From: Bryum argenteum
Taxonomy: Eukaryota; Streptophyta; Bryopsida; Bryales; Bryaceae
Direction of reading: 5' to 3'
Length of the DNA: 64,000 nt
NCBI GenBank assembly: GCA_037043015.1
Contig: CM073325.1
Coordinates: forward strand, 20,067,001-20,131,000
The position numbers and the translations under genes were made by a program. A model generated the notes under the pieces. That model did not search any database, was not told the origin of the DNA, and saw only the letters and a program-made list of their open reading frames with translations. Positions 37,816-63,927 of this stretch are shown here, piece after piece (within the stretch, counting starts at the first letter, position 1; every line of letters starts with the position of its first letter).

Positions 37816-37940
37816 TCGACTCACATGCACGATTTGATGATAAGGTATTATTAGCATTGCCTACATATATGAAAATATTGCGCTTAGTAGAATTCATTTC
37901 ACTTATACAGATTGATGGTCCTTTTTTATCAGGGTTGTCA

Positions 37941-38510
37941 AATCGGTCGACATTCGGGGTAAACCTAGTCCGCGGACGTAGTCCGGACTATGTCGACCGG
38001 GACCATAGTTCGGACCATGGTCCGGGGGGGTAAATGGGAGTTACCCGTCCCCTGGTAACTCTCGGGGCCGTTGGATCATCCACTGGCAAAGACATCTCAA
38101 CCGTCGAGATCTTGATCCCCCGGCTCCGCCGACCGACCCCGGCCGCTCCGTCGATCGGACGGACGGCCCGACCGCATCAAATCTTGGCTGTCGGATCAAG
38201 ATTCATCGTTGCGGGCCGTTGGATTGGGGCGCCGTCCGCATGCCTGACGGCCGTCGGATCCGAGCGCGGCCGACCGATCTGTCGGCCAGGCGGTCGGGCC
38301 GTCCGATCGGACGGATCGGTCGGCAAAGCCGGGCGGTCGGTCGGCCTGGCGGGCGGTCGGTCGGCCTGGCGGGCGGTCGGTCGGCCTGGAGGGCGGTCGG
38401 CTAGGCGGTCGGGCCGTCCGATCGGTCGGCCGCGTCGGCCATCCGGGCGGGCCGTCCGATCGGTCGGCCAGGCGACCGATCGGCCGTCCGATCCAGGGCG
38501 GGCCGTCGGC
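37941..38510 (+). repeat. Left subterminal GC-rich GGTCGGCC array
   Basis: Subterminal region with the palindrome GGACCATGGTCC (about 38015-38026), then a strongly GC-rich array of GGTCGGCC, GGCCGTCCGATCGG and CGGGCGGTCGGTCGGCCTGG units, the last tandemly repeated at 38330-38400. It ends at the TATA box of the kinase-like gene. Such arrays may bind the transposase, as subterminal repeats do in other hAT elements. Open frames inside it are side effects of composition. Confidence 0.85.
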
Positions 38511-38513
38511 CGC

Positions 38514-38530
38514 TATAAAAGGCCGACCGG
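38514..38530 (+). promoter_or_regulatory. TATA module of the kinase-like gene
   Basis: TATAAAAGGCCGACCGG, with TATA at 38514, at the end of the GC array, 227 bases before the ATG at 38747. The sequence after TATA is almost the same at 43143-43162 and 56535, next to other genes of the element. A pyrimidine-rich leader follows. Confidence 0.7.
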
Positions 38531-38746
38531 CCTCCTTTTTCCCTCACTTCTTTCCTCCATTTCTCACGAAGAGAGGATGCGGAGTGTTTCTGGCTGGGAA
38601 TGCCTTGTAATTCCTGTCCACTAGCTCCTTGTCTTTTGGAGGAAGGAAGTGACTTGTTATACGGGGGGAGTTTTTGTTCTTTTTTTTTGAAAAGTTTTTT
38701 TAAAAACTTCACACTTTCTTTACATATTTCCTTTTTTGGGATCAAG

Positions 38747-40228
38747 ATGCCGAAGGACAAGAAGAGGAAGGGTGGTGCGAACTTCTTTGAGAAGTTCGAG
38801 CCTCATGAGGTCCCGGGTGACGCTTGTAAGGTATTCTTGATAGAATTTACCGTCAAATTCTATGAGGCCAATGATCTTCGAGCATTGGAAAGCAAATATG
38901 TGAGATATCAGGAGGAGGGCATCCAGAAGTTCAAGCTTGAAATGAGAGATCTCATGATAGAAGTGCTTCAGCATCCGAAGTGGGTAGCAGAGACAGAGAA
39001 ACGAGGGTTCATGTGGTTTTTGGATAATAGGGTGAAGGATGCACTCTGGAATCCCAAGGTTGTAATAGCCAAATATGGAAGGATATTTCGGGAGGGTGAT
39101 GAGGATTTCGTTGACGTGGTGAATAGGGCTGATTGTTTTTCAGCCCAAATGAGGGCATTTTCAAAGAATTCACACCGTCGAGGCTCTGGAACATGGTGGC
39201 AATCGCTTGAGGGACGACAAACTCAAACCATGCGATTGACTCATTTGGTTACCATTCCGGATACAGCTCAAATCATACGAGTTGACAACACGAGGTTGAA
39301 GGGACGGTATGGTACTATTGTCAAAGTTCGCTTCGAAGGTGTTGCAGGCATTGAACCATTTTGGGAATTTGCTGCAAAAACTTCCATTCACTTCTTGACA
39401 CGACCGGAGTTGGCAAAATTGGAGCATATGAATGAGTCTATGGCGATAAGGATTGGACACCCGGGTGTGATCCGATTTGTGGCCATTCATCCAGTGAAGA
39501 ATCAAGGCTATGCGTTTTGGTGGAATGGCGGGACTATTCGAGAGATGCTGAACCGCGATATGGATTATGGTGACGATGTCTTTGTACATTTGAACTTTGG
39601 GAATTACCCTGACGACGAAGTTATTCGGGCGCATCAATCGATTCGATTCCGTAAAAAACGGATGAGCTTGCTTGGGCGTTGTTGCATATCATGAACGAGG
39701 TCCACAAGAGCCACCACCTCCATAATGATATATCTCCGGATAATATCCTTCTCCACTTCCTGCCGATGAATCACGAGTGTATATCGGAGTATGCGATTGG
39801 GGCTTCTCCACAACGGTTCAGGAACCAATGCAATCCCTTTATACATTTACAAAACGTGAGGACATGGTGGAGACCCTGCGAAAACGTTATTGGGTAGATC
39901 CACGAGTGGCGTTCTTGTACAAAGCGGGTGAGGATTTCTGATTATTCCAAAATACTCGATTGCTTCGGAGGAGTTTGCCACGGCCCGCATAGCACAAAGA
40001 ATTAATGGGATGACCATGTCTACGGCGTCGAAGAGCTTGCAACGTGGAAACCGAAATACTTCGGTATTCTCCAATGAAGACCTTGCACAAGCTTTCCATC
40101 TTTACATGGATAGAGTATGCAACGAGAGCCGTGACGGCGCTGGAGGGTTGTCCCATATCATCTCACGCTTTAGCGATATGTTTCATTGGCCCACGCCTCA
40201 TGAGCATTTTCGGACGAATTACGAATAG
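38747..40228 (+). CDS. Protein-kinase-like protein carried by the hAT element
   Basis: The start is ATG at 38747 (MPKDKKRKGG, basic), followed by a 180-residue region without a known family. A kinase-like fold follows: RLKGRYGTIVKVRF (glycine-loop position), FAAKTSIHF (A-x-K, VAIK position), HPGVIRFVAIHP, WWNGGTIREML (hinge region), HNDISPDNILL (catalytic loop, HRD to HND with catalytic Asp and metal-binding Asn kept, Lys to Ser) and CDWGFST (DFG to DWG). The last part is FATARIAQRING and ends DMFHWPTPHEHFRTNYE. Frame changes occur at an A6 run near 39653 and again near 39760 and 39950, so the copy is broken or the sequence has errors. Likely an active-type but divergent kinase. Role in the element is unknown. 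Confidence 0.7.
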
Positions 40229-41521
40229 GAGAACGTAGAATTTGTTTTATGCATATCGGTTTTATTATAGTTTATGAATTAGTATGCATGTTCTATTTTC
40301 AGTGCAACAATACTCTTTGTTTCAAATGCATTGCATGCCTTTCAAATTTTGGCCCACCAAGTACACTTATGTTTATTATAATATTTTGCCCCTTTGCACC
40401 ATTTGGATGAGGCCTTTAGGGTAAAGCCCAAAAAAACCTATTGATTCAATTTTTAAGTGTTGGTTGGGTAATTCAAATTTAGCGATTTATCTTCTATTTT
40501 TCTTCTCATATGTTTATAAGAGAATCACTACTGAAATTCCAAAAATATTTAAGTCATAATATTTACCAATTTTACAGTGGCAGCCTCCAGAAATTACCAA
40601 CACAAGCTCAAAATGTATTAGTAAATTATGAATTACATATTTCAGAATTTGTCAAAATTTTAGATTATGGAAAACTGTTAGAACTAAGTTACCTCAAAAA
40701 TCACAAACTCCTACACTCACATACCCCACTCTAAGTTCTTTATAATACGAAATATACGTAACGACGTGCATGTTTTACTATAGTATTGTTCGGACCTGCT
40801 TTTAGAAAATAACTTGTAAGAATGTCAATCAAGAGGAATGAGGCTCCCAAATTTTGCATGAATTTACTACACTTGATTACATATAGGGAAAAAATATGAC
40901 CAAAATTTTGTTGGTAACAATTGCCAACTCCCCCTTTGCACCGTGGAGACACTGCCTCCGGAGCAAATTCCAAATAAAGTTTTAAACAAAATTTGGATGT
41001 TAGGATCTCGCAAAGGATAAACATCCTAAGGTCACTTTTTAAAATAGTAACTTAAGATAGGCTTCGGTTCACGATCTTACGGTTGAATGTATTAAATAGA
41101 TAAAAATAATTCGTACATACTCCAAGAGTACATACAGGTAGGAAATCGTAGTTATGAACACGAGGTTTCAACTTTCAAGCTTCCAAAAACACTAAAATTC
41201 TTACTGGTTAATAAATGGAATCATAACATATTTACTCAAATAAATGTGTAATATAGGTTATGGTTCTACATTCCGTATATCATTCATATGATGTCCGTTT
41301 ACCAACAAAACATGGTTAAGAAGGTCTTAAAAAATGACCTCTACCATATGGAGAATAGAGTTCTCATCCAAATACTACATGTACGTACAAGACATTACAA
41401 AGATGCCTATATGTAAATGTATAACTACTTTGCATCCTAGTCCTTATCATCTTGTGTTCCACTTGGCCCCGCTTGGTCCGAGAACCGCCCTCGCGAATAA
41501 GCATCATACAAGCGCTCGTCG
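40229..41521. other. Intergenic stretch between convergent cargo genes
   Basis: AT-rich, no gene. 40510-40734 resembles the interior of the TTAA-flanked MITE (31154-31357, opposite strand), so it may be a decayed relative. Confidence 0.45.
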
Positions 41522-43126
41522 TCAGTAAATACGATCATTTTCAAGCTTGCGGATGTACTCCGCTTGACTTTGAATTGTTGCCTCTCGTAGTTGTCTTTCA
41601 AACTCGCATCTTCTTCTTCACGAGTTCGGAATGGTGGCGGGGAGTGTTGTTACTCCCATATGCATGTTGGCCATACCGGATATGGATCTTGAGTGATATG
41701 CTCTTCACGATCCTTGTTCGGTAATTCCAAACGGGCTCGTATTCATCTCTTGCTTGACTTGGAGTACGGTACTCGGGATTGGTAATAGCTCTACCGTACT
41801 CGCCGTGATGATCATGCGTATCTCTTGGATACGTTGGTCTAAAGCTATCCGGAACCTCGGGTCTTCTACCGTATTGGTTGTGAGCATCGTATGATCCAAA
41901 GAGGATACGTTGTGGGGTACCTTTCTCGAATGTTAGGTCCTCTCCCATACTGGCCTCGAGACTCGTATGTGTCCCTTGGATGTGTTGGGATATGGTACTC
42001 ACGGACTACCGGTACCTCTACCATATTGGCGGGAACATCGTTAAATTCCCGAGGATATGTTGGCGTATAGCTCTCCGGAGCACTCATTCCACCGTATCGG
42101 CCTCCTGACTCGTATGTATCCCAAGGATATGTTGGCATATATCTTCCTCCAGCATTCGGACTTGTATCGTGTTGGCCTCTGGATTGGTACGTATCCCTTG
42201 GATGCTCTGGCCTATATGTCTCACGAGTAGTGGTTCCTGGACCGTATATATTGCTACCGGGATAATACCCACCACTTCCTATACCAAAAGATATTGGTAC
42301 CATACCCGTGTTATTGCTGCGATTATAATTATCTGCGGTGTGACCCCCATATCCCCTCGGAGGTGTATGTTGTTGATGTTCAGATTGACATTCGTATCCC
42401 CTCGGAGGTGTGTCTTGTTGATGTTGTGTTTGACCCTCGTATCCCCTCGGAGGTGTATCTTGAGAAATTCGTGTTTGACCTCCATATTTCCTTGGAGGTG
42501 TACTTTCTTCATCTTGAACTTCCGACATCTCCGTATATGTCCGATTTGACCAAAGGGGCATACAATCACTGTGTCCAAGCCAACTAGTTGGTATGAAATC
42601 ATGGCTCCGATCCAATTTGGCAACATTCAAACCTGTTACGGTGCTCCAATTCACGTTCTTATGTAGAACGATTTCTGCCCAAACCATAGCCATGTTGGAA
42701 TATAACATGATTTCCGGCCTAGTATTCCGTACTCCAACGGCAATGGTCACTTCATGATAACGAAGTGTGAAATGTTGACTTGTGCAACTGCTGGCTAGTC
42801 CTTCGCGTCGTGGCCCTGATATAATCGCTTGATTTCTTGGCCATAACTTCATGAGGTGTTTCATCTTCACATATCGCTTGCACATGGTGCAATTCCAAAT
42901 TCTCGCCGGTTCATCTTCCCATCCATCTTGGCAACACAATTTGGATCGTCGATTTGCTTCCGATCCATCTCCGGGGCCTTGCCCTTGGGTGCACTAGTAC
43001 GTCGTTCCTCGGCATATTGTTCACCACAAGAAAAAAAAAAAAAAGCGCAAAAAAATGGCGTCGATTATCAAGAGGGGACTCGAGGAGCGCAATCGACATG
43101 GAAAACCACGGCGACAGGGCGCACAC
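41522..43126 (-). CDS. Cargo protein with KLWP/NWST domain and Tyr-rich repeats
   Basis: The main open part runs from 42939 down to 41866. It begins with WEDEPARIWNCTMC and CKRYVKMKHLMKLWP, followed about 80 residues later by LHKNVNWST; the same two motifs occur in the RING gene at 56710, so the two share a domain I cannot name. Four copies of a 15-residue unit DTPPRGYEGQTQHQQ follow, then a low-complexity region of Tyr, Pro, Arg and Gly (TYPRDTYESRGQYG-like units, at least five). A coiled-coil tail with YIRKLENDRIY ends near 41522. Frame breaks are visible near 41900 and 41590 and in the N-terminal part (around an A15 run on the + strand near 43030). Probable nuclear or condensate-type protein; this is inference from composition. 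Confidence 0.62.
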
Positions 43127-43142
43127 GAGTAAGGAGAAATGA

Positions 43143-43162
43143 GCCCCGGTCGGCTATTTATA
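43143..43162 (-). promoter_or_regulatory. TATA module of the KLWP/Tyr-rich gene
   Basis: On the - strand TATAAATAGCCGACCGGGG (43162 down to 43144), with the GC array upstream (higher coordinates). Same arrangement as at 38514 and 56535: TATA, then (A/G)GCCG(A/T)CCGG. Confidence 0.7.
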
Positions 43163-43545
43163 CCGATCGGGGCGGTCGCTGTCGCCCGTTCCCCCCGGCC
43201 GTCCGATCTCCGTCGGCAGCGGTCGATTTCGCCATCGGTCGGTCAGGATCGGTCGGCCAATCCGATGGCCGCATTGGCGACCGATCCATGCCGCCCGATC
43301 GGTCGACAGATCTGTCGCGGCCGTCGGATCCGGCCGGTCCATCGCGGCCGACCGATTCACTGCGGCCGACGGATCCGACGGCCGCCGTCGACGGGTCGCA
43401 AGAAGCGGTCGGCCGCCGTCCGTCGATGTCGCCGGCCGTCCGATCGATGCGCCGCCGGCCGTCCGATGCGGTCGCCGGCCGTCCGATGCGGTCGCCGGCC
43501 GTCCGATGCGGTCGGCCGTCCCACCGTCCGGTCGGCAGGTCTTTG
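43163..43545 (-). repeat. Internal GC-rich GGTCGGCC array
   Basis: Array of GGCCGTCCGATGCGGTCGCC and GGTCGGCC-like units upstream of the - strand gene. The unit GCCGGCCGTCCGATGCGGTC is tandemly repeated at about 43450-43515. It is followed by a T46 tract (43553-43598). Confidence 0.8.
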
Positions 43546-43551
43546 TTGTTT

Positions 43552-43552
<1 letters not shown>

Positions 43553-43598
<46 letters not shown>
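43553..43598. repeat. T46 homopolymer
   Basis: Uninterrupted run of 46 T at the outer end of the internal GC array. The length is not reliable in any sequencing technology. It could be the tail of an old retroposed copy, but no body is recognised. Confidence 0.9.
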
Positions 43599-43602
<4 letters not shown>

Positions 43603-45300
43603 AACTGTTGGGTTTCCGTAGGGAGAAGAAAATGAACGCTTATGGAGAACCAAGTCTTGTTTTTTGGATTTTTTCAAACATGAGGCATGCTTTCCCATGG
43701 CCCACGAAGAAAGGAATTTTTTTTTAATAGTTCTGGTCTTGGAGTCCAAATTTCCTCCACATGACCTAAACCAAGTCTTCTACAATGTTGTACGGTTGGG
43801 ATCTAGATTGCTAACCTTTATTTTCATCTCTTGCACTTTGCAAAACGTGTGTTTCTAGGCTCTAGAGTCTACACCCCCTTGGGCATTTGAGGTTAAGGGT
43901 TACAAACTTACAATGAACATGTATTAGCTGAAAAATATATTTTCTCATGAACTATAATAGAAGGCTATTGGCATTCATGAAAATATGTGTACGTATAAAA
44001 CATATAACATATAAATTTCATTATACATACATGCGTCCCAAATTTAGAACCAGGGATGATAGAATCTACTGTATCCTAATTTGTGTCTTCCATGTCAACA
44101 GTAGGTTTTATGTAAATAGACGTGGTTTTATTTATACCGTATATAATAATTACTCGTATTTTCTAATATCATTCTTATTCACATTATAATTAGAATACTT
44201 CAAAATGACTTAAAGGAACAAAATAAGTTTTTTTTTTTTGCCAATTGGATCTAAGATTATATACTCCCCAAACGTAGTGCCTATTTTTAACCAAATGACG
44301 CATTATCAAATGAAGGGTCCTATATTGAAATGAAGATGCACAATTTACATTCTCAACCATGTAATATTGTAATAGAGTTATAGAGCATGTGTGACCATTT
44401 AGTTTCATAACTTTGGTATTACCGTGTTAGGCCTTACATTGACCACATTTAGACATAAGAATAGGCTTAACTTAAAAAACATTCTGCCTAAACAACTCAT
44501 TCTATTATTGGCTATTTTTGTTTGACACCCTTGAACTAAGGTAGGAGTATATTTATAATGTAGTACATATCATTGTACTTAATTTGCACATATTCTTTTT
44601 CCATATTTATTAGTACCATTTTTTTTATTGTATTTATTTGAATAATTATTTATTTACCTCTTACAAAGGTAATAGAAAGAGGATTCTATTGTTTTCTATT
44701 TCGCGATCACAAATAAAGAGAAGTAAAAAGGGAGACAAATAAATTTTTGAAAATATCCAACTCTAAAAGTTTTTAACATATGGCATCAACTTATAAAGAT
44801 TGGTGTTGGAAATCTTTGGAAACTCAATTGTGTGTGGAATGAAAATAAGGGATTCGTGTATGCATGGTGTAGTATTGAATTATATTTTTAATCGATTAGA
44901 ATGCCACTTTTCTCCATCGCATTGTTATTATTATTGACATGGAATAAATCACGAGTTTGTTGCAAGGAATATATTGATAGTATTTTCAACATTCAACATA
45001 GCATCTAAGATTATAGACTCCCCAAACTTAATGTCCATTTTTCACCAAATGTCGCATTTCCAAAATAAGGGTCCTATATTAAAATGAGGATCCTCAACTT
45101 ACATTCTCAACCATGCAATATTGAAATAGAGTTATAGTTGTAGGTCATGTGCCCCAAAGTTGAGTCATATAACCTCATACATTACGAGATCATAATATGT
45201 TAGTACACAAGAGAATTTACAAAATTTCATCACTTCTAGATTGAAGTGAAAATTCATATAACAAAGCTACTGCAATCATGAAATCTCCAAGTAAACCATA

Positions 45301-45356
45301 AACCTAAACCCTAAACCCTAAACCCTAAACCCTAAACCCTAAACCACTAAACCCTA
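45301..45356. repeat. Interstitial telomere-like CCCTAAA repeats
   Basis: About six CCCTAAA units in a row, with one variant unit (ACCACTAAACCCTA) at the right. This is the plant telomere motif, in an internal position inside the hAT element. Confidence 0.92.
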
Positions 45357-45546
45357 TCCGTGAATAAAGAATATATAGCATTTCACAAATCAACATAGGA
45401 TTCCTTTTTTCATTGTGTAATAATCACTGAGAATCTAATAACAGAAATCTGAGAGGGATTAAAATTTAAAAAGGATCCTATGAAATTTTGAAAGATTCCA
45501 GGAACACAATGGAAACTAAGAATAAAAAAAAAAAGAAAAAAAAATC

Positions 45547-45790
45547 CCCAAGCGGGCGATGGCGATGTAGGATCGGTCAATCTGGGCCGCTCGTGCCCGG
45601 CCGACCGATCGGACCGACCGCATGACCGGCCTACCGACCGACCCGGCGACCGGGGACTGGCCGAGCGACCGGGGACCGGCCCGGAGACCGGCCGGGCGGC
45701 CTGCGGTCGGCTATCCGTCGGTCGGCCCGCGTACCTCCCTCCCCCTCCTCTTCTTGCCTCTCCCCAGAAGGCCAGAACTCCCCGTTTCCT
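45547..45790 (+). promoter_or_regulatory. Orphan GC-rich array and pyrimidine leader without a gene
   Basis: GGCCGACCGATCGG-type array (45547-45740) ending in GGTCGGCTATCCGTCGGTC, where the other copies have TATA, and followed by a pyrimidine-rich leader (CCTCCCTCCCCCTCCTC) as at the kinase-like gene. No gene follows. I read it as a fifth copy of the promoter module that has lost its TATA box and its gene. Confidence 0.5.
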
Positions 45791-48399
45791 CAACTTCTCT
45801 CACTTCCCTGCATTGCATATTTGCATTTCTATATTTAGCGTCTCGCGTACACGTGGCGTCTAAATCGGGGTAGGGAATGTTCTGACAAGGGAATGTCGGG
45901 AAGATCTCTTTGTCAGAAACAAGAATGTTTTATGACAAAGATACTCTAGGCTCCAAATAATTCTATAATAAGGGACTCCTTGCAAGAGGAGTCAAGGCCA
46001 ACATATCTCCCATGCCGATTCCCCCATTAGTGAAGGTGTTGGGAGTTGGTGCCCATTTCTAGAAGGAAAACGAAGGTTATGGGGCCAATTCTTATTATTA
46101 GCGAGAGTCCATGTTTTAGATTTGTTCTCATTGATTTTATTTCTTACAAATATTCTTTCTTAATTTGAATCAAGAAAACGCTTTTAGGCCATGAATTGAC
46201 ATTCATTTCTTGAATGTCCCAACTTTTGTCAAAAATTGATCCATTCTCACAAGGAGATGTTCTCATGTATTGGCCCCATTAATGGCTTGGCCCCTATTGT
46301 GCACTTTGAGGTGGCCCTAAATCCTCTCATATCACTTTCCGGACTTTTTACCTATTCTTTGATGAGAGTATACTTATGTCTAACATTGGAGAGATCTAAG
46401 TATATATTAAATGTAGGTGAGCATGTGTGAGTATTTTGTTTTCATAACTTTGGTATTACCGTATTAGTCAATATTTAAACTTCCTATTTAGCCCTTAAGT
46501 TGTCCACATTTTATGGTCTATATTATTTCATGTGCATTTAGAAATAATTCCATCGTTGTGTATTAATTTGAGTAATTATTCATTTACCTCTTGTAAAGGT
46601 AATTGAAATACAGTTCTATTGTTTTCTATTTTGTGATCATAAATTAAGAGAAGTAAAAAGCGTTACAAATAAATTAATAAAAATATCGCACCCTATAAGT
46701 TTTTAACATATGGCAATAACGGCATCAACTTATAAAGTTATAATCATATTTGATCTTGTACACGTATAGTACTTCTATTTTATGTTAAATGAAGTTGATT
46801 ATTCTTATATTAGAAACTTTGATGGATTGATTAGGGAATAGAATGTTTTGAATAGCCATCGCTTTTTCATTTAGAGTATATTGTGGATGAAATCACTTGA
46901 GCATAGGATATAAGGTTCATGGTCTAGGATTTATTAATTTCCCCTGGCTAATATTTTTATTTTTCCATATCCAATACATTATTTTACAAACCTTTGTAGG
47001 CTAATTCCTTTATTATATATTGGACATGTTATAGTCTCATCCGGGATGTTGGTTCTTAACTCGGGTCCCCTCTAAAATGAAAATAGTTAAATAAATAATA
47101 TATATACACTATACGGTAAAGATAGAGCGGTTTTTGCTAAAAACATATTTAGAGGTAAAGTCACTCTACATAAATAGCGATTTAATGCTAAAATTTTATT
47201 TACAGGTAAACAAGTTCTATATAAATAGTGGTTCTATTTAAATACATATTTAGAGGTAAAGCAAATCAATTCTACTTTGTGTGCGAGAACTATAAATCAA
47301 AAAGTACATACATAAATATATATACTATACATGTATTGATGTATATAGTAAATATTATATTTATTATAAATTCAACAATAATATAATACAATTATAATAT
47401 ATATTACATATAATATATACCTTCATATACATATTATACTATGAAACATAAAGTACATACATAAATATACATATTCTAATTTATTAATACATAGTATATA
47501 CGTAAATATACATATCCTACTTTAAATATAAATAGTTTACATACATGAAGAGTTAGATTTCTATAATTGATCTATTAATAAGATTTGTTTTTAGAAATAG
47601 AAAAGTAAAAGACTATAGAAAGACTTTTAGGTGGATATATAAACTCATGGGTAAGAAGGAAGAGACTATTTTTTGTTGTGAGTTCTTTGGTTATATTTAT
47701 ATACAATTGTTATATTCGATATGAAAATTGGAGTTCGTATCTATCTATCTTGTTGAAGAACAGTAATTACCAGTTTATAATTATCCTATTAGTATAAGAA
47801 ATTCGTTCCAAGGGAGACGGTTAAGTAGGAATTTTTAAGCAACTAGGTCTAATTTTAAAAAAAAACCTAAAACAAATCTAAATAAAACTACTTTAAATTT
47901 GTAGAGAAAGTTTACACAATTTGGGAATAAAATTTTATCCACATTTCTTATTTCTTGAGATCTATCTCACGTTTTTTTACATGCGCTTCTAACGTTGGTA
48001 ATTGTATTTTCTAATTCAAAATCACTCAAAACATAGAATTTGGTACAAAGGGCGGTTATTTAGTCTCCATTGAGGATGCCCTAATAAACATACCCTTGTA
48101 AGTCATGTGCATAAAAGTTTGATTCATAGAGCCTCATAGATTGCGAGATGATAATTTATTAGTGCACAAGAGAATTTACTAAATTTCATCATTTTCACAT
48201 TGAAGTGAAATTCATAACAAGTTGGTTTTGAGGGGTTTTGGCACTTTTTACGGCTACTTTATACTAGAGGCCATTTGAAGTTGGGCCCATTTGGAGTTGA
48301 GCCCACTTGGACTTAAAGTGGGCCTTAACTTTAGCTCTACTTTACAAAGTGGGTCATAGAGTGGATCTTGCAATATAAAGTCCTAATGCCCACTTCGAC

Positions 48400-49924: not shown

Positions 49925-49947
49925 AGGCTACGCAACGGGATCCAATC

Positions 49948-51040: not shown

Positions 51041-51129
51041 TAACCAAAGGGGCAACCGACTCCTTCATAAGTCCCGAAGCATCCAAGAGGATGGGCTTGC
51101 ATTTGAGTAAGCAAGCTCATCCAAATGAG

Positions 51130-53780: not shown

Positions 53781-54622
53781 GGGGGTGAATTACCACACTT
53801 GTGTACACTTGGCCTAAGTTTTGTCTAGCATTTGGTGCAAATGGTGCAAATGACACATGTTGTAATACTTGGTTGACAATTAAGTTGCTGGCAAGTTCCT
53901 TGATTGCATGTTGGAAATGAGATGAGTCCTAATCTCATTTTGGATTGCTAGGTTGGTTAGAAGAGGTTGAAGGATACGCGAAGCCAATACTTGGAATCTT
54001 TGCAAAACAGGGACCTTGGCTTGGGAGTTGTGAGTGGGTGAACCCCACGACTCTCAAGCTTAGGACTTGCTCGGGCGGGGGAGCAAGGTAGTGGCACGGG
54101 CTCATAAAAGTGCCCTTTGCGGGTTGACCATCGTCAACGCATGGCTTGATCACCCATGTCTCGGTAGAGTGAAGCAAAGGCTAGGTCGGGCGGGACTTAG
54201 CATTACCCCTAGGCGAGCAAAGTTCACCACTTGAGAGCCTAAGTGTTTGAAAAGAGGGCTTGGTGTTGCGACCAAGAAAGTGTTGGTTAGCCTTGAATTC
54301 AATCCTAAGTCATGTGAGTATGATGGGCTAGTTGAGCCTAACTTGGGGCCATTGGGGGCATTCCAAGTGAGTCTCAAAGTGGATAGGTCTAGTTTATGTG
54401 GGTCCTTCCAAGGAAAGTCCTTGGGTAGAAAGGACCTTAGACCTATCGGGTGCCACCTTTGAGACTTAGCCATTTTTCAAGTAAAAGGATGCTTGGAGCA
54501 TTGCGGGGCTAGCTACCCTGGAACGCAGTGCAAGTGCCAAGGAGGCGGCTACCTCAAGAACTTGGTACTGCCGACAAGAGAGATTGTCGATGAGGGCATC
54601 GACGCTGTTTGGTGGGGGTGAG
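53781..54622 (+). other. gypsy 2 3' untranslated region
   Basis: Non-coding stretch between the chromodomain remnant and the 3' LTR, ending with the purine tract. No gene is recognised. Confidence 0.6.
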
Positions 54623-56140
54623 TGTCACATCCCTTTCCAAAGGATGCCCGAACACCGTGGTGAGCCGAGAGGACTCCGGGAGTGACGCCCCGGGCTCGGC
54701 AAGAGACAAGGTGAAGTGACCAAGGGGAGTCCCGAGCAAACAGCACGCAATGGCGTCGTGCTCGGGACGAACTTGGTGGCGTGTCTTATATGGTTGGAAA
54801 CCTTGTTTGAGCACGCATCCATGGGTCCAAAGAACGCGCGATTTGGAGTTGTGAGTCATGAGATATGACTCTCCAAAGTTGCAGCGCGTTCCGGGACACT
54901 CCGGGACTCGGGAGTGTTGCCTTTCGGGACTCAAAATGTCGTCCTTCATGGATGGCGGCATGTTGCATGTCTTTGAAAAGCTCTGGACAAGAGCTTTCCA
55001 AAATGCTAAGGCTCGTGAGGAGCAAAGCAATGCTTTGGGAGATATGGCTCTCCAAAGCATCGGGACTTCGGGACTCCGGGACTGCTGCCTCCCGGGACTC
55101 CCGAATGTTCAGAGGAGCATAGCTCCCACATGGAAGCTCCAATTGGGACAAGTGGGGAGTCCATCGACATCTACTCAAAGAGTAGATGTCGAAAATGGGC
55201 TCGCACGTCCCATTTGGATAACTGAGCTACAAGTTAGCCCGAGAAGAAGATACGGCCCGTTTTTGAGACTAAGGCAAAAACGGGTGGTCTTCCAAAACAA
55301 AAGTGTGTCACGGAAGGCCCCTCAACACAAGAGGGGGGGGCCTACCGAAGACTCCAGAGAGTACTATGAGGAGGGGTGGTCTCCCTCCTCACTTGCACAT
55401 GGTGCCTTGAGGAGCCGGGGTGGCTCCAAGGGGTGAGGCTTGGGATGGGGCCTCACTCCCGCACCTTGTGGAAAGTAGAGAGTGCTTTGGAGCCTTTCTA
55501 AACATGGGGTAGGGAAGTGTCCCTCTCCAAGTTAGTCCCCGTGATAAGTAGTGCCGGTTCTCGGGAGTGACCGGGAATGGCTCAAGAAGGTGAGGCATGG
55601 AAAGGAAGCCTCACTCCTACATCTTGGGCATTGTGGGATGCTCTTGAGCATCCCGCAACATTAGGTTGGAAAGAGTCCCGGTCCAAACTAGTCCCCGGGA
55701 AAACTAGTGCCGGATTCCGGGAGGATTTCCGGCAAAGTCCCGAATGGGGTGAGAAACAAGAGTGGAAGGCGACTAGTGGGAAGTTGGACAATGGATAAGG
55801 GCGGTTAGCTCCGGGGTGATTAGTAGCACCCTTGGGAGCTTGGACATTTGTGGAAGGTCGCCCGTGCCACCAAGTGGCATGCCCATGTGTTGGTGGGAGT
55901 TCCGGGTTGGCATACCTATGTGTTGGTGGGAGTTCCGGGTAATGAGTACCGGATAATGAGTTATAGACTCAAGGTGGGTTGGACACCTTGACTTGGAATG
56001 GTGCTAACATTGTGTGTGTGGGGCACATGCAAGTGTTAGCAAAGTCGTGGCCGGTTGCTACCAACTAAGTGAGCCGTGATTCCGCTACCAAGTAAGGCTC
56101 ACTAAGAAAAAGAAGAGTTGGAGTAATTAGGGTCGCGACA
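54623..56140 (+). repeat. 3' LTR of gypsy 2
   Basis: Differs from the 5' LTR by about ten single-site changes. Nearly all are length changes of G or C runs (for example G5 against G8 near 55332), with one clear substitution (GGCCGCC against GGTCGCC near 55858). TCGAC follows at 56141. Confidence 0.95.
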
Positions 56141-56709: not shown

Positions 56710-57228
56710 ATGACGTCGACTGAGAACGTGAACACGAGTATGGAGGTGGAGAATTCGATGATATCAGCAGAGGCGCCTAAGAAGAGGAATAAACAAAAAG
56801 GTGCAACTCATGGGCTGAATTGGGAGATTTTAGAGAATGAAGACATTAAAGCGGAACGCGGTTGGGAACTGGAGGTGACGGAGTATTGGACCGCTCAAAT
56901 TTGCAAGAAATATGTGAAGATGTTTCACATTGGCAAACTTTGGCCTAAAGAATGTCATGCAGTTCATACCAAGAACTTTTGTTGCAACCCGCAACATGCA
57001 AGGATGATCACTTTATCCACCGTGCGGAGGAAGTATGGCGGGCCTTGTTCGGGATCGTGCCAAAACAAAAGGGTACTTTTATTTACCAATTGTTGGCAAT
57101 GGTATATCTTTGAGTTGATACTACAACGGAAGATAAATTGGAGCACGTACCAAACTAATACTCAATTTCCTTCAATTGAGAGGAAGCGAAGCATATCCCG
57201 GATTGCTTTGATCCACAATCTGCCTTGA
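56710..57228 (+). CDS. KLWP/NWST domain, N-terminal part of the RING gene
   Basis: ATG at 56710. A basic segment (APKKRNKQKG) may be a nuclear signal. Then comes WELEVTEYW followed by CKKYVKMFHIGKLWP and, about 80 residues later, LQRKINWST. These motifs match the - strand cargo gene at 41522-43126 at the same spacing, so the two are paralogous. The frame ends at TGA 57226-57228, but coding character continues in other frames (EDTTEDENVVTKDTETF near 57285-57335, after an A17 run), so this is probably one gene with the RING frame. The A run makes frame assignment unsafe. Confidence 0.65.
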   Translation: MTSTENVNTSMEVENSMISAEAPKKRNKQKGATHGLNWEILENEDIKAERGWELEVTEYWTAQICKKYVKMFHIGKLWPKECHAVHTKNFCCNPQHARMITLSTVRRKYGGPCSGSCQNKRVLLFTNCWQWYIFELILQRKINWSTYQTNTQFPSIERKRSISRIALIHNLP

Positions 57229-57298
57229 CAAAGCATATTTTGGAGGTTTTGAGAAAAAAAAAAAAAAAAACAAAAGGTCGGAGAGGATACAACGGAAG

Positions 57299-59209
57299 AT
57301 GAGAATGTCGTTACAAAGGATACTGAGACATTCCTCTTGCCACGGATGGTCTATCAAACGAACAACTGCAGTTGATAGGCTTCGGGATGTAAACGCGATT
57401 GGGAGAGCGATCATTGGAAGAGGCGAATGCGGTGCAAGATCGTGTGGGGACTTAGAGAATGTAGTGGAAGAGGTACTCTCCCCTCTCATTCCAGATAACC
57501 CTATTATTCCCAATGGCCTAAATTTGACCGTCAATAATCCAAAATCGAATGAGGCAGGGCCAAGTAAACCAATGGAAACAACATCCATGCCAGATTCCAT
57601 TACTCCGCAGATGGAGAAGGATTGGTGGTCAAATTTCGAAGAGCTATATGAAGGAGTACCAAGCAACAAGAAACTGAGAGAGTTTCTCACTTATATTGAC
57701 GAAATGGCAAAGATCTTATACGAGGGTTCGGCTCCAGATGGTGAGACGAAGTTGAAGTGGGAGGACACCAAAAAAATCTCAGTATTGGAAGCTGGGACCG
57801 ATATGAAAATCGCGACTGAAGTTCTTGCTACTATGGCTCCACAGTTTTTAGAAATGTCTAAAACTTTTGCCTTATTGATGCCTCGAATGCTAGAAGCAGC
57901 TATAGACTACGAGAAGATATCAGAGAAATGGCTCCCGTATGTGAAAGCAAGGATAAAGGATGTGGAGGATCTTATGAGTCTTGAGGCGAAGTATTCCGTA
58001 GCAATTACCATGATTGAAAAGGTGGTTTATGATTTCAAACTGAATGGATATGAGCGCAGAAAATCCCCGTACTACTGCAATCTCATGGAGCAAGCGATGA
58101 ACATTTTGAATCCTCCCGAAGAAGGTGATGTGGAAGATCTCCCCCTAAATCCAAAAGATATTTCTCCAATTTCAAAAATTGGAGAAACGATCGATAGGGA
58201 AGGTGATCTTATTCCATCTAATAATGATGGGAATAATAAGAGTGATGGCCCGGAGATGAAAAGTACTCCATCATGCGAGCCAGGGCCTACTGAGGCAGTA
58301 GAGGACATTCATGAGAAGGAAGCACGGTTCACTACGCAGGAGAAAGGAAAACAAATCATCAATTTGGACGATGATACGGAATCGGAGGACAATGGAAGGA
58401 GGGGCGTGCGTGTAGAGGATGATACACATTCGAAGGGAAAAGATTGCCTACATAATCAATGTCCTAAAGAAACATTGGAAATGCAATTGGAAGCAATGAT
58501 GAAGCAGAGAGATGAGGCACGAGCTGAACTAGAATCCATACGAATGGCATTGAGAAATGTGGATTATACACCACGCGAAGAGAACATATTGCCTTGGTTG
58601 GCTTGGGTTCACCGACTTCAAGATAGGGAGGCCATGGTTTCAAAGGCACAACATAATCTGAAGAAGATTGCCGCCAAATCATGTGGTTCGAGTGAACATG
58701 TGAATACATCATTGGAGGAATTTAAAAAATACGAAAGATTACGAGAACACGAACCTACTAAGGTCACTATTTGGGGTGATGTGGAGGAGATGATGGAGCG
58801 AACAAATTTCAATCGGATGGGAAAAGATGATGATATTGATTGGAGTTTGGAAGTGGCAGAAGGATGGGTGCCATACAACTCATTCTCATCGCATTTTGTG
58901 GAATCAAATCGAAATGTCGTTTACATGCGACCCCCACCGACAATACTGAAGGAAAAATGTGGCATGTGCCGATATCATTTCGGTCCAGAAGGAGCGTACA
59001 CACTGGGCCAATGTGGCCATAACTTTCATGTTACTTGCATAGCAAGCGTTGCCCGGGGAAAATCATCATGTCCTATATGTCGTTCTCCAATTAGCACGAG
59101 ATTCTACGAAGTGATGGGGATGCGCGATGTCATGCCACCTGGCACACGAGTTCAACCGATGGAATCTCCCTTTGGATCAACTTCCAAAGAAACTTCACAA
59201 CTTTCGTGA
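57299..59209 (+). CDS. RING-H2 finger protein, main open part
   Basis: Open frame of 636 codons. The middle part is helical (WWSNFEELYEGVPSNKKLRE; AIDYEKISEKWLPYVKARIK), then acidic, then a coiled coil (MQLEAMMKQRDEARAELESI). Near residues 553-596 a RING-H2 finger is complete: C-x2-C, 14 residues, CGHNFHVTC, 10 residues, CPIC (CGMC...CPICRSPI). RING-H2 proteins are usually E3 ubiquitin ligases that position a charged E2. Whether the N-terminal 20-30 codons are used is doubtful because of the frame change near 57370. Its position in the element suggests modification or removal of a host or transposon protein, but the substrate is unknown. Confidence 0.78.
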   Translation: MRMSLQRILRHSSCHGWSIKRTTAVDRLRDVNAIGRAIIGRGECGARSCGDLENVVEEVLSPLIPDNPIIPNGLNLTVNNPKSNEAGPSKPMETTSMPDSITPQMEKDWWSNFEELYEGVPSNKKLREFLTYIDEMAKILYEGSAPDGETKLKWEDTKKISVLEAGTDMKIATEVLATMAPQFLEMSKTFALLMPRMLEAAIDYEKISEKWLPYVKARIKDVEDLMSLEAKYSVAITMIEKVVYDFKLNGYERRKSPYYCNLMEQAMNILNPPEEGDVEDLPLNPKDISPISKIGETIDREGDLIPSNNDGNNKSDGPEMKSTPSCEPGPTEAVEDIHEKEARFTTQEKGKQIINLDDDTESEDNGRRGVRVEDDTHSKGKDCLHNQCPKETLEMQLEAMMKQRDEARAELESIRMALRNVDYTPREENILPWLAWVHRLQDREAMVSKAQHNLKKIAAKSCGSSEHVNTSLEEFKKYERLREHEPTKVTIWGDVEEMMERTNFNRMGKDDDIDWSLEVAEGWVPYNSFSSHFVESNRNVVYMRPPPTILKEKCGMCRYHFGPEGAYTLGQCGHNFHVTCIASVARGKSSCPICRSPISTRFYEVMGMRDVMPPGTRVQPMESPFGSTSKETSQLS

Positions 59210-59904
59210 GTGGGGGAAAGCACTTGAATGGGATAGTTCAACATCAAAACACCAGCTCCTCATGCATGATGTAGGCGAGACAGAGCCATTGCTTTGGATG
59301 ACACGTGACTACGAGGTGGAGATTAGGCGCGAGATATTGAAGACAATGAGCAACGAGAGATGTTTTGCCGCAACTTTGGAGGACATTGAGTCATCGAACA
59401 CAATCGTTTCTTCCGATTCCCTCCAAAGAGAGTGGAGAAGGGAGAAGATGGTTTGTGGCATGAGGTAACAAGTGACATTGAGTTTGGAGAGGAGTACAAG
59501 AAGTACGATGATAGGCCGATTGGAAGGGCTTTAGTCCTAGCGAAGTTGGAAGAGGCCGCACACTTACGGATTTCAACGAAGGAGGAATCTTTCAAAGACG
59601 CAGACTGTACTTTTACGGGAGGCGGTAGAGAAATTTGAGTCGCGCATTAAGAACATCATTACTCATTGGACGACAATGATCAAAGACCCGGCGGAGTTAT
59701 TGGTGTCTATCACGTGAGAGGACTCCTTTGTGAAGGATGTGGTGGGACGAATCGAGGAGGCCATGAAAATCTTCCGTTCCAAAAATGCTAACCCACCCAA
59801 GAAACGGAAAAGGGATGATGGCAATGAGAGCGGCAGCGATTGGATGTCGGGCAACAACAGAGAAATTGCTGCGAGTGGATCAAGAATACGACGAGGGCGG
59901 TAGA
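59127..59904 (+). pseudogene. C-terminal part of the RING gene in shifted frames
   Basis: Beyond the RING frame, coding-like sequence continues: WGKALEWDSSTSKHQLL (59215 onward), REILKTMSNERCFAATLEDI, EEYKKYDDRPIGRALVLAKL (59480), then FESRIKNIITHWTTMIKDPA (59634 onward), EEAMKIFRSKNANPPKKRKR (59755-59815; PKKRKR is a classical monopartite nuclear signal) and a stop at about 59902. At least three frame changes and one TGA (59716) separate the parts. Together they suggest a protein of about 1000 residues, nuclear by its signal. Confidence 0.55.
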
Positions 59905-60304
59905 ATTGCTAGACCAAGCCAAAGACCCCGGACTCGTAGTATAGCAAATACGATTGATACAGAAGAGCATTCAGTTGCGATGTAATAGAAATCCAATAGA
60001 AGCGTAGACGGTTAAGAAGGGTTACAGTTCCCGGAATAGGGTCGCTTACCATTTTGGATTTGTAATGCATGGTTTTTGTAATGAAGTTTTTTATTTCTTA
60101 TGATGTAATAGTCTTTTGTTGACTATTCACCGACATTTTCAGACAAAATAAAGTACGAACATATCAACAGTTTGGTAATAAAGTTTCACGAGCTATACTA
60201 TCCGAAACATACACGAAGTATGCTAGACCTCTACTACGTGTCTGAGCATGTAATTAATGTCTATTCATCCACATCGGTGGGAATTGCATAATCGTTGTCT
60301 CCTT
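59905..60304. other. Convergent intergenic stretch
   Basis: Non-coding gap between the RING gene (+) and the transposase (-). It contains AATAAAGT (60148) and AATAAAG (60177), possible polyadenylation signals for the + strand gene. Confidence 0.5.
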
Positions 60305-61237
60305 TTACTTCAGCTCCGCTAGATCCCGTAGGGTCATCTTCGAAATCACTACTAACTCTTGTTTGATTCTTCGTTTGTGACTTCCCGAATGAATGATCTT
60401 GAATTTTCCCGCATTCTCAATGGCATCAAGGGGATTCTTCGGTTTATCATGAACAAACGGAAGCATTGGAGCTTTACGTTTCGTCATAACTCTTGGAGGC
60501 TCCTTCTTCCGTAGCCCTGAACCTCCTGGAAGGTTCTTGTATCCCAATTGAAGAAGCGGTACATCCGAGTCACTAGAGATTCCGCCGGAATTGGAACGTA
60601 CTGTTCGAGGTCGCACTTGATTTGAAAGTGACACCAAACGTTTGGAAGATTTCTCCATCACTGTAGGGACCTCTAAATCACATTTTTGAAATAGAGACCG
60701 AGAGGCAACAGCAGGCAACGCAGGTTCATCCGCAGTGGCGGACGTCATATTTATCGTTATTGGATCAAACGTAACAGTACGGCCATGAGTATCATCCCTC
60801 ACGATTTTCACATTCGGAACAACATTCTCGTCCGTATTTGGAGTTAGTCCGGTACGAGGGGTATTATCACATGTGACTTTGTCGGTATCCTTTTGAAACC
60901 GTGGTAAATGAGCTAGGGGCAACAATTCATCTGGATCATCCGCCTCAGCTTCATCGTCAACAAAGTCATACGTGGTGTTCGGGACGTTCAAAGCATCTTG
61001 CAAGCTCATAGCGGGGATGCTATTGAGGTCATCTTCTAGGTCCTCCAAAACGTGATCCGAAAAGCCTTCACCAATTGAGTTATGGGGGGTTTCTTCATCA
61101 TCGGAGTCACGTACGTCACGATCCTCTACATCCAAGTTCTCCGAGTACCACCTCTTCTCATCCGTTAACTTTGCGTTTGCAAGTAACTTTGAGTTGATGT
61201 ATACAAAGACCAAGTCATCAGCCCTTTCCGGTAGCAA
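60305..61237 (-). CDS. hAT transposase, C-terminal end and tail
   Basis: 310 codons. It begins in the conserved LLPERADDLVFVYINSKLL block that ends plant hAT dimerisation domains and continues with a tail not needed for transposition in typical family members: acidic (DVRDSDDEETP, DDEAEADDPDEL), then basic (SGLRKKEPPRVMTKRKAP, SGSHKRRIKQE). The tail is open over its whole length, so it was under selection until recently or is by chance free of breaks. Confidence 0.75.
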   Translation of the reverse strand: MLPERADDLVFVYINSKLLANAKLTDEKRWYSENLDVEDRDVRDSDDEETPHNSIGEGFSDHVLEDLEDDLNSIPAMSLQDALNVPNTTYDFVDDEAEADDPDELLPLAHLPRFQKDTDKVTCDNTPRTGLTPNTDENVVPNVKIVRDDTHGRTVTFDPITINMTSATADEPALPAVASRSLFQKCDLEVPTVMEKSSKRLVSLSNQVRPRTVRSNSGGISSDSDVPLLQLGYKNLPGGSGLRKKEPPRVMTKRKAPMLPFVHDKPKNPLDAIENAGKFKIIHSGSHKRRIKQELVVISKMTLRDLAELK

Positions 61238-62423
61238 CCGATTCCGCTTCCTATCGTGAACGAAAGAGTAATCGCTCCAATTTGCGTTCGCACGCCGACG
61301 ATGACACCGTTTGAGCTAGGATTCGCTTTGCAATCGGAGCAAGGAGTTTTCCAACAAACCCTTCAATTTCCCACCAAACAAAGGGAGAACATTTCGACTC
61401 AAGAGGATCCAACATCTCATGAAATGGTGCACTCCTCATTCGAAATGCCATATATTCATTCGCCACATCATGATAAGTGCCGGAGCACATAGAGTTTTTA
61501 GAACACGCCCGCACCCATGCGGACCTCTTTATCATCTCGCTAACTCTTTGTCATGTAGTAAATAAGGATTAAGGAGTGCACCAAAGACAGAAGCAGAATC
61601 TGTTGTCATCATCTTTTTCCTTGCGTAGAAGTTCTCCTTCGCAATGTCCGCTAAATCCGTAGGGAGTGAAAATGGTTTTGTAGATAGCGTCAGTACATGC
61701 TTCTCGAGCTGACGAACGATATGCAAAGCCTTGCCCGCACAAGGCTCCTTGCCGTCGAATTCGAAGAGCATACACTCTCTGGGGCCACCATATCTCGGAA
61801 GTTTGTACAACGCTTCCAAAAACCGTCATCCAAAACCACTTTTCTTACGTTGCGGGACTCCGTAATTTATCTCTAGCCGATAGAGACTTCTTCGAGGCAT
61901 ATAACAACATTTGGGGATCTACAACGATTTGCTCCAAAGAATCGCGAACCCTGCAATAAGCGATCTATCATTATAAAATTGCACGCAAATCTTGTTTTCC
62001 AGGCATCAATAGGCTAAACCTTGTCTCGTGTTTACGAAACACGGCTAAAGGCATTTGACGATTTTTAATGAACTTGACCAAGCCCTTGGCCTTTTCCAAA
62101 GTTTCTTTCACCCATGACGCCTTTCCCCAATCTTCCAACAACAAATCCATCGCATGCGTGGCGCATCCCCGAATGAATATATGGGGATAATCCTCAACGA
62201 CTAATCGAGAGGCATTAATCATTACGAAGCGTTGTCCGTGCGGACTTGGACAACGCTCGGGCCAACTTGTTTGATGAACTTCACCATGATAGAGGCCATA
62301 TACATTCTTTGTCTTTTCTTTGCCGATGAGTATCGACGGCGCCAAGAAAAAGCTCTCCGGCAGAGTCACTAGCATTGCATTCACAAGAGGGCGACTACTC
62401 TGATGATGACCATCCATCCATGG

Positions 62424-63158
62424 CTAAAGTTCCCCGAACTTCCGAAGGCTCTCCTTGAGTCTACTATCTAGTTTTCCTTCTAGATCACTTTTTACTTGTC
62501 CCAACAACTTTGTCCGAATGTCATGGTAAGAAGGAGGGACATATGGTTTTTGGAAAGAGGCAGTTTTCATTACGGCTTCCTTGAAGATCGGATTCCGTGC
62601 TACAGCAAACGGTACGTTTGCTTCATAGAAAAACTTTGCCCAAAGTATGTCTAGTTCCCGCCTATCCGCTTCAGCAAAACCATCTTCAATCACAGATTGT
62701 TTCATCGCCCTATTGATATGCCCACCAACCCTCACTTGTCCCGCAAAGTTAGGAACGGCGGAGATTGATCCAACTAAAGGTGTTGATGGAATCGAAGGGG
62801 TAGCTTGAGAAGATCCCACGCAAGAGTCTCCACCAATGGACCTTGGCGTGCCAACATTCGGAACTTCTGATGACGATGGTATTGAATGAAAACCGCTCAT
62901 TTCTCCATTATGTGGAGGGAACCGCCCGTCACATGTTCGAAATAAATCCATCACTCGGGTGTTCAATTTTGGACAAAGCGTAACTGTATTAAGGCGGACC
63001 CCACGCTTGCCTTCATAACCAAGGTGACTGAGCTGCCGTTCTAGCCTCTTGCTCATAACCTTATGACAGAGATTGCATTGGACAGTTGGGGTCGTAGTAG
63101 GTTGGCCTTGTACTTCATGAACATCGGTGAACCAAAGTGAGGATGATTTGTTGGCCAT
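62424..63158 (-). CDS. hAT transposase, N-terminal open part with BED finger
   Basis: 244 codons from the initiator ATG. The BED finger (C-x2-C with downstream His) would bind the ends or the subterminal arrays. A Ser/Thr/Pro-rich linker separates it from the DUF659 start. It ends with TAA just before the first catalytic Asp, which lies in another frame (TLAMDGW). Confidence 0.85.
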   Translation of the reverse strand: MANKSSSLWFTDVHEVQGQPTTTPTVQCNLCHKVMSKRLERQLSHLGYEGKRGVRLNTVTLCPKLNTRVMDLFRTCDGRFPPHNGEMSGFHSIPSSSEVPNVGTPRSIGGDSCVGSSQATPSIPSTPLVGSISAVPNFAGQVRVGGHINRAMKQSVIEDGFAEADRRELDILWAKFFYEANVPFAVARNPIFKEAVMKTASFQKPYVPPSYHDIRTKLLGQVKSDLEGKLDSRLKESLRKFGEL

Positions 63159-63358
63159 TTTGATAGGTAGGACATCTCAAAATGATCAAACGTGGTAGTA
63201 GATATGTAGAAAAAAATGTCAAGAGTTCGTAAACGAACTCTGCACTTCCGAACTCAATACGTACCAAGCAACGGACACATAACATAAAGTTATGCAGCTC
63301 AGAGACTTTGGGTCGCATTCACAATTCGGAAGTGAAATGAGGCCTTGTGTCTCTTCTC

Positions 63359-63365
63359 TTATATA
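63359..63365 (-). promoter_or_regulatory. TATA box of the transposase gene
   Basis: On the - strand TATATAAGAGAAGAGACACA, about 205 bases before the ATG at 63158, with the right subterminal GC array directly upstream. Unlike the other three modules the GCCGACCGG block does not follow TATA directly; AAGGCCTC is found some 20 bases on. Confidence 0.65.
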
Positions 63366-63414
63366 CCTTCAACCCTGAATTTGACCGTTGAAATTTGAAT
63401 TTCTGCCGTTGAAT

Positions 63415-63908
63415 TTCAAGTGGTCGGGCCTTCGTAGCCGGCCGACCTCGCCGGTCGCCACAGCGGTCGGCGGCCGACCTCGCCGGTCGTCACCCCGGTC
63501 GGCGGCCGACCTCGCCGGTCGTCACCCCGGTCGGCGGCCGACCTCGCCGGTCGTCACCCCGGTTGGCGGCCGACCTCGCCGGTCGTCACCCCGGTCGGCG
63601 GCCGACCTCGCCCGGTCTTAGGGCGGTCGGCGGCCGACCTCGCCCGACCGCGACACCGGTCGGCCTAAGGAACGTCGGTCCCGCACACCGGTCGGCCGGT
63701 CGGAGAGTCGGACGAAGTGCGGTCGGCCGTCAAACGGTCGTCGGCGGGGGAAGTGCGGTCGGTACCGGGCGGGGAAGTGCGGTCACCCACTGTCGGACGG
63801 TAATTTACCCCAAGTAAATTATAAAAAACCCGTTATGTCACCGACAGGTTCTAGGGGCTGAGGACGACCGGACCATGGTCGACCAGTCGCCCCCTGGTCC
63901 GGTCGTCC
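63415..63908 (-). repeat. Right subterminal GC-rich array
   Basis: Tandem 36-bp units of the form GGCGGCCGACCTCGCCGGTC plus GTCACCCCGGTC, about five times (63460-63620), then GGTCGGCC-like units, then GGGGTAAATTACC (reverse strand) and the palindromic ACCATGGT near the end. Mirrors the left subterminal region in motif content. Confidence 0.85.
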
Positions 63909-63927
63909 TGACAACCCTGTTTTTTAT

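Follow-up and report, generated by a model that had tools for sequence, protein, structure and literature searches.

A hAT transposase moves its element by cut-and-paste, acting on the terminal repeats, and the hAT elements known are small, with just one or two genes. Ac of maize is 4.6 kb long and has 11-bp terminal inverted repeats (TIRs) (PMC3260210). In fungi, one report describes hAT elements of approximately 9.5 kb that contain histone H3-like sequences and are flanked by 8-bp duplications (PMC6710886). Another describes a rust-fungal element, hAT7, with a TET/JBP dioxygenase and 7-bp duplications, as well as Lanisha, an EnSpm-like DNA transposon that belongs to a group with 2-5 bp duplications (PMC12730594). 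Giant multigene elements include Teratorn, which is 180 kb long. No precedent for a giant four-gene hAT element in plants was found in the open-access literature, in line with the original prediction, which knew of no such plant element.

The window analyzed here, a 64-kb stretch of DNA, contains a unit that is very probably one copy of a multicopy giant hAT family, about 18 kb long without later insertions, that encodes a transposase and three resident accessory genes. The unit has the following features:

37922..37929, no strand, left target duplication TTTTTTAT, 8 bp
37930..37940, + strand, left TIR CAGGGTTGTCA, 11 bp
37930..38130, + strand, left end, a genome repeat (40 places scored among 112 candidates)
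38747..40225, + strand, divergent protein kinase gene (by tblastn; 495 aa in relative P0129), interrupted in the window copy
41440..43010, - strand, Tyr-rich repeat gene (limits approximate), interrupted in the window copy
44473..46939, no strand, non-coding middle with blocks conserved in a second family (by sequence comparison)
48400..56140, + strand, nested Ty3/gypsy-like LTR element with a TCGAC duplication (limits placed from the sequence), not part of the hAT unit
56716..59973, + strand, RING-H2 gene (1,039 and 1,102 aa in relatives P0121 and P0124), interrupted in the window copy
60264..63158, - strand, hAT transposase gene (966 aa in relative P0001), interrupted in the window copy
63720..63919, + strand, right end, a genome repeat (40 places scored among 115 candidates)
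63909..63919, - strand, right TIR TGACAACCCTG, 11 bp
63920..63927, no strand, right target duplication TTTTTTAT, 8 bp, an exact match to the left copy

The ends and the target duplication were as originally predicted. The TIRs are perfect over 11 bp in the window copy, and the 64-kb window holds no second pair that is both perfectly inverted over 11 bp and flanked by an exact 8-bp duplication; 20 mononucleotide shuffles of the sequence produced none. A search for empty sites joining the flanks of the unit, a check proposed beforehand, found two, at each of which the joined flanks match uninterrupted with a single TTTTTTAT. The unit was therefore inserted as one piece, and it is a real unit rather than a chance arrangement. 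The nested Ty3/gypsy element is absent from all nine other copies compared, and without it the unit measures 18,244 bp, in agreement with the 18.2 kb estimated earlier.

The transposase has the features of the hAT superfamily. DUF659 and the hAT dimerization domain both scored above the Pfam cut-off in copy c10_745 and in relative P0001, and the Pfam search of the window transposase itself returned DUF659 only. Residues D248, D309, and E625, which we take to be the catalytic D, D, E triad, are invariant in 18 relatives. The 8-bp duplication, the short TIRs, the transposase domains, and the D/D/E residues together place the element in the hAT superfamily. The giant element inserted as one piece with an 8-bp duplication, and the transposase would have acted at its terminal repeats.

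Further copies of this family (family 1) are present in the genome. Units were paired from the best 40 of 112 left-end candidates and the best 40 of 115 right-end candidates; among these matches, at least 12 long and at least three short units were found besides the window copy. Ten of the 12 long units (nine plus copy C9) and two of the three short units were read. All four genes are present in each of the ten further long copies, C9 included, and eight of the ten have exact 8-bp duplications, each different; the other two, c2_325 and c2_332, are without matching 8-bp flanks. Both short copies read have an exact 8-bp duplication. Across the ten units that were aligned, the window copy counted, the kinase, RING, and transposase genes are found in all, and the Tyr-rich gene in the same ten. 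Second copies with the same ends and gene set, whose absence had been named in advance as grounds for rejecting the unit, thus exist, and the joint mobility of the genes is borne out by the copies and the empty sites.

The window copy has frameshifts or stops in all four genes. Indel-type errors are present in the assembly, and part of these interruptions may be assembly errors. In every copy read, at least one of the four frames is broken. Some copies retain a full kinase or RING frame; C9, for example, has a full kinase frame and a nearly full RING frame, with a stop in the Tyr-rich gene and a shifted transposase frame. An accident of nesting or misassembly, which such indel-type errors might favor, has a negligible probability and is ruled out by the ten further long copies and the two empty sites.

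The kinase-like protein matched Pfam below the cut-off in family members. Nonetheless, K212, D329, N334, and D352 are invariant in 23 relatives. These are presumably the catalytic lysine (K212), the aspartate and asparagine of the catalytic loop (D329 and N334), and the aspartate of the DxG motif (D352). The gene thus encodes a protein with the catalytic residues of a protein kinase. The closest solved relative of the kinase profile is a MAP kinase (E 8e-4), and a profile search of viral_contigs and genome_contigs confirmed no viral or prokaryotic relatives. The closest named relatives are proteins of the moss Ceratodon purpureus, which point to a plant as the host group as far as seen; the genome resembles a moss genome. 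The RING-H2 protein matched PF13639 above the cut-off, and its ligands C697, C700, C715, H717, H720, C723, C734, and C737 (C3H2C3) are invariant in eight relatives, as in a RING-H2 zinc finger; it is a putative E3 ubiquitin ligase. An N-terminal domain is common to the RING and Tyr-rich proteins. Searches of this domain against PDB sequences gave no credible match (best E 0.28 and 0.35).

Scans of the same genome with the kinase and RING genes revealed at least 86 kinase places (the best 86 of 1,124 candidates) and at least 44 RING places (the best 44 of 1,894), all in high-copy groups. Among the matches listed, 13 of the 44 RING matches have a kinase match within 40 kb upstream, on the same strand in all 13 cases, compared to a chance expectation of 0.67 on average and 5 at most in 2,000 draws. 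The remaining 31 have none within that distance among the kinase matches listed.

The genome also holds a second family (family 2). In its one copy read through, the kinase, Tyr-rich, RING-H2, and transposase genes follow one another and are oriented as in family 1. Family 2 has its own ends with 11-bp TIRs, and exact 8-bp duplications flank two of its three delimited copies. The two families differ by a dS of 1.17-1.41, with a dN/dS of 0.20-0.31 (kinase and two RING pieces). Of seven gene pieces, six have a dN/dS of 0.05-0.17 for shared changes and the seventh, the RING middle, has 0.49; private changes give 0.38-0.65. Three full-length kinase copies gave pairwise values of 0.35-0.58, indicating weaker constraint than for the shared changes. 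Judged by these substitution patterns, all four genes bear marks of purifying selection. The blocks of the middle region conserved between the families do not appear to be coding, as mismatches in the best block are spread 18/19/21 over the three codon positions, or to be a structured RNA (fold z-score 0.18). Rfam at the gathering threshold gave no match in the hAT unit.

Given the many copies and the recurrence of all four genes in a long-diverged sister family, the three additional genes seem to belong to the transposon and not to be accidental baggage. The original prediction of a giant hAT element with three non-transposase genes therefore stands by its copies, their different duplications, and the empty sites. 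Its description of these genes as cargo does not fare as well. Since a family separated by a dS above 1 has the set as well, and the genes show apparent purifying selection, the term is probably misplaced, and they seem to be resident accessory genes instead of recent cargo. It is highly improbable that a hAT element recently picked up three host genes that ride along without serving it. Fungi do have hAT elements that captured host genes (PMC6710886), and some genes are interrupted in every copy read. However, recent capture is at odds with the recurrence of all four genes, identically ordered, in so divergent a family, the low dN/dS of shared changes, and the domain shared by the RING and Tyr-rich proteins. 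In a gene-capturing (Pack-type) element, the internal genes would derive from identifiable host genes; no stand-alone progenitor was found among the best 86 kinase and 44 RING candidates. A benefit to the plant, as from the cargo of some large fungal elements, is also improbable, if less so. Several copies do have open kinase or RING frames, but the high copy number (at least 86 kinase places) argues against it, and a host benefit predicts varying cargo, whereas the content is the same in both families.

The accessory set probably acts on the host or on the control of transposition. The kinase and RING proteins may work in trans against host restraints on transposition, such as silencing, the cell cycle, or repair, and the RING and Tyr-rich proteins could be recruited by their common N-terminal domain to one and the same partner; we regard this as possible, with somewhat less than even chances. 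Alternatively, the accessory proteins could be transposition machinery, involved in transpososome assembly or in target or timing control, instead of anti-defense agents. Plant DNA transposons such as MuDR, En/Spm, and Ping use second proteins, and the shared domain suggests a common partner here as well, yet kinase and RING domains typically regulate other proteins, and a role as machinery seems rather unlikely. Returning to action in trans on the host, there is a nearly even chance that mosses harbor an old giant-hAT lineage that is a coordinated four-gene module for disarming or reprogramming host control, with a conserved non-coding control region, represented here by two many-copy, recently active families. 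If purifying selection has indeed kept the kinase, RING-H2, and Tyr-rich genes in a hAT lineage over a long divergence, multi-protein strategies are within the evolutionary reach of plant DNA transposons, and the accessory genes are concrete candidates for transposon action on host silencing, the cell cycle, or repair. Given the high copy numbers, many annotated moss kinase or RING genes may be transposon genes.

Finally, the unit can be compared with the described elements. Lanisha has reportedly been linked to Ceratodon, and the authors who described it are said to work on a moss. A Lanisha or CMC-like identity is ruled out, as Lanisha is EnSpm-like and the unit has hAT domains and 8-bp duplications. 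Teratorn and Starships are, like this unit, large multigene mobile units, but the recombinases differ. Starships have a tyrosine recombinase at one end; none is among the Pfam matches of the ten window proteins scanned, and the gene at the end of the unit is a hAT transposase. Among the fungal hAT elements, those with H3-like sequences resemble the unit in their 8-bp duplications and in containing sequence from a gene other than a transposase, but have one captured housekeeping sequence in mutated copies, whereas here two families have three such genes, which show signs of purifying selection. hAT7 likewise has a resident gene for an enzyme with a possible effect on host silencing, but differs in its 7-bp duplications, its different single gene, and its fungal host. 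Like Ac/Ds, the unit has 8-bp duplications, 11-bp inverted ends, and a transposase with DUF659 and hAT dimerization domains. Unlike Ac, it is approximately four times the size and contains three further conserved genes and a long conserved non-coding middle.

The inverted ends of the window unit are perfect over 11 bp (at 37930 and 63919), with TTTTTTAT flanking each side. The original prediction of perfect ends with an exact 8-bp duplication was borne out: no second such pair occurs in the whole window, and 20 shuffles of the window yielded none. The genome comprises 258.8 Mb in 25 contigs, the window being C5:20067001-20131000. It was searched for empty sites with the window flanks joined (150 bp ending in a single TTTTTTAT, plus 73 bp). 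Query positions 39-223, including the joint, match C5:20040076-20040260 at 99% and C9:12633567-12633751 at 98%, and only one TTTTTTAT is aligned at each. Since both sites are uninterrupted and have a single TTTTTTAT, the unit entered as one piece, and the Ty3/gypsy-like LTR element nested within it arrived later. The C5 site is near-identical and lies just ~64 kb upstream of the insertion; therefore, the target sits within a duplicated stretch. Short direct repeat arrays are found at 37163-37687, immediately outside the left end. Elsewhere in the window, frames at 1769-3808, 4747-9164 and 10881-15421 resemble a TIR-NBS resistance-type gene beside gypsy-like and copia-like polyproteins.

The window unit harbors four genes, each of which is interrupted in this copy:

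38747-40225, plus strand, kinase gene, by match to relatives
about 41440-43010, minus strand, Tyr-rich repeat gene, limits approximate
56716-59973, plus strand, RING-H2 gene, by match to relatives
60264-63158, minus strand, hAT transposase gene; DUF659 and hAT dimerisation score above cut-off in another copy, c10_745, and in the protein relative P0001

The kinase (495 aa in the relative P0129) is very divergent and its Pfam matches stay below cut-off; K212, D329, N334 and D352 are kept in all 23 aligned relatives. Among its named relatives are proteins of Ceratodon purpureus, 77% and 45% identical, in line with a moss genome. One Ceratodon relative, P0168 (KC19_VG055000), is the representative of 126 member sequences; the 110-Mb contig on which it lies may, going by its tag, be the V sex chromosome, and similar elements may be abundant on that contig. 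The two RING-H2 relatives with a complete N-terminus have 1,039 and 1,102 aa. The N-terminal ~125 residues of the Tyr-rich protein are homologous to the RING protein N-terminus (~28-38% identity, E 1e-17 to 1e-22). In the middle of the RING gene, roughly 57600-58100, the version in copies c10_745 and c7_115 is clearly unlike that of the window copy, which suggests recombination between subgroups.

Further copies are numerous. For the left end (201 bp) and the right end (200 bp), 40 places each were scored, the best of 112 and 115 first-look candidates, respectively. Apart from the window copy, pairing these gave at least 12 long units and at least three short ones. Sequence was read for ten of the 12 long and two of the three short units, leaving out a pair at C2:20.8 Mb, a 23.2-kb unit on C18 and a short unit at C1:31.4 Mb. 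As anticipated, other full copies have different 8-bp duplications. Among the ten long copies, which measure 17.6-19.8 kb, the duplication is exact in eight, each with a sequence of its own; the flanks mismatch at 7/8 positions in c2_325 and 3/8 in c2_332. Nine long copies were compared; all are colinear with the window unit, mostly at 90-98% identity, on either side of the nested element, and none contains that element. Deletions remove ~58644-59008 from c6_142 and ~60105-60837 from c2_275, and ~40991-41202 is absent from five of the nine. Ten aligned units, window included, are 94.8-97.8% identical pairwise, and each carries 45-95 private substitutions. The same 11-bp ends, with exact duplications, bound the two short elements (6.1 and 7.35 kb), of which blastn aligns only the ends (~79-91%) and a ~135-bp stretch to the window unit. 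These elements are likely non-autonomous relatives.

The genes also show linkage. A kinase match lies within 40 kb upstream of 13 of the 44 scored RING matches (best of 1,894 candidates), always on the same strand. Chance placement gave 0.67 on average and at most 5 over 2,000 draws, for which some contig sizes were approximate; the other 31 RING matches lack such a partner among the best 86 of 1,124 kinase candidates. In other sources, transposase P0006 and RING P0124 come from contigs of equal size (8,444), as do transposase P0019 and kinase P0173 (27,639). Given one source for each pair, we infer that each sits on a single contig.

Kinase residues 1-495 are matched stop-free at at least seven family-1 places among the best 86 of 1,124 candidates. 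The main RING match is stop-free, in an open frame of 1,042-1,204 aa, at 13 of 44 scored places; at three of these 13, a separate N-terminal match contains a stop. In the copy at C9:4245728-4264420, the kinase is full and the RING frame stays open almost to its end; the Tyr-rich gene has a stop and the transposase frame is shifted. Aligned over 1,524 columns, the two LTRs of the nested element (48397-49910 and 54620-56140), a very young insertion, differ by 2 mismatches but 11 gap openings. Each copy also has 36-94 private indel events, a number on par with that of private substitutions. Both results point to indel errors in the assembly, which would produce false frameshifts; real decay is also possible, and frameshift counts need caution. 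Codons of ten copies were compared site by site. For changes shared by at least two copies, which are few (7-38 per gene piece), dN/dS is 0.17 in the kinase, 0.13 in the transposase, 0.11 and 0.12 in the Tyr-rich gene, and 0.06, 0.49 and 0.05 in the N, middle and C parts of RING, the middle being highest of all pieces. Private changes give 0.38-0.65, and three full-length kinase copies give 0.35-0.58 pairwise. We read the low shared and higher private values as genes that stayed functional while the element spread and were relaxed after insertion.

Could the genes have been captured recently from the host? A sister family in the same genome argues against this, as it has the same gene set. The kinase search found at least 33 further places at 54-57% identity, 11 of 33 stop-free in the match, among the best 86 of 1,124 candidates. 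In the one copy read for gene content (20 kb), kinase (+), Tyr-rich (-), RING (+) and transposase (-) are ordered as in the window unit. The RING and transposase frames are shifted in places, and the Tyr-rich protein has no Pfam match. This copy is a 16,926-bp unit whose ends read TAGGGATGTCA and CAAGGATGTCA and whose duplication agrees at 7/8 positions. At C8:13316948-13334311 and at C10:16574705-16591946, two others fetched at their ends only, the CAGGGATGTCA ends are perfect and the duplications, GCGATGAA and TTTGAGAT, are exact; the fetched pieces of another copy, on C5, held the left end alone. A single base distinguishes the ends of one family from those of the other, and between families dS is 1.17-1.41 and dN/dS 0.20-0.31 (kinase and two RING pieces).

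The unit inserted whole, its gene set recurs and the genes bear signs of selection. hAT transposases move elements by cut-and-paste. The transposase would cut and paste the element, and the accessory proteins may assist in trans. Their likeliest role would be to modify or degrade host factors, and the RING and Tyr-rich proteins perhaps bind a common partner. It is nearly as likely that the accessory proteins are components of the transposition machinery itself.

The non-coding middle appears more conserved between families than most coding DNA. Between 44473 and 46939, blocks match family 2 at 72-84% identity and in rearranged order, although these are local BLAST blocks, a choice favouring conserved stretches; coding DNA aligns at 67-72%, except an 82-bp piece at 79%, and synonymous sites are ~36-41% identical (pS 0.59-0.64). 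A 710-bp piece of the middle recurs at 97-100% identity in 40 scored places, the best of 499 candidates; of these 40 places, 36 cluster with family-1 ends or kinases. The best block showed no coding signal, codon periodicity or RNA fold, and an Rfam search of the whole unit gave no match. Constraint on regulatory DNA and exchange between families are both possible.

By the features tested, the window unit is a hAT, and the copies, distinct duplications and empty sites uphold the prediction of a giant one carrying kinase, Tyr-rich and RING-H2 genes. No comparable plant hAT was found in the open-access literature; a description may exist in Repbase or the Ceratodon genome paper. The nearest precedents found are fungal hATs with histone H3-like (PMC6710886) or TET/JBP genes (PMC12730594). 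The window unit differs from described hATs in both size and gene set.
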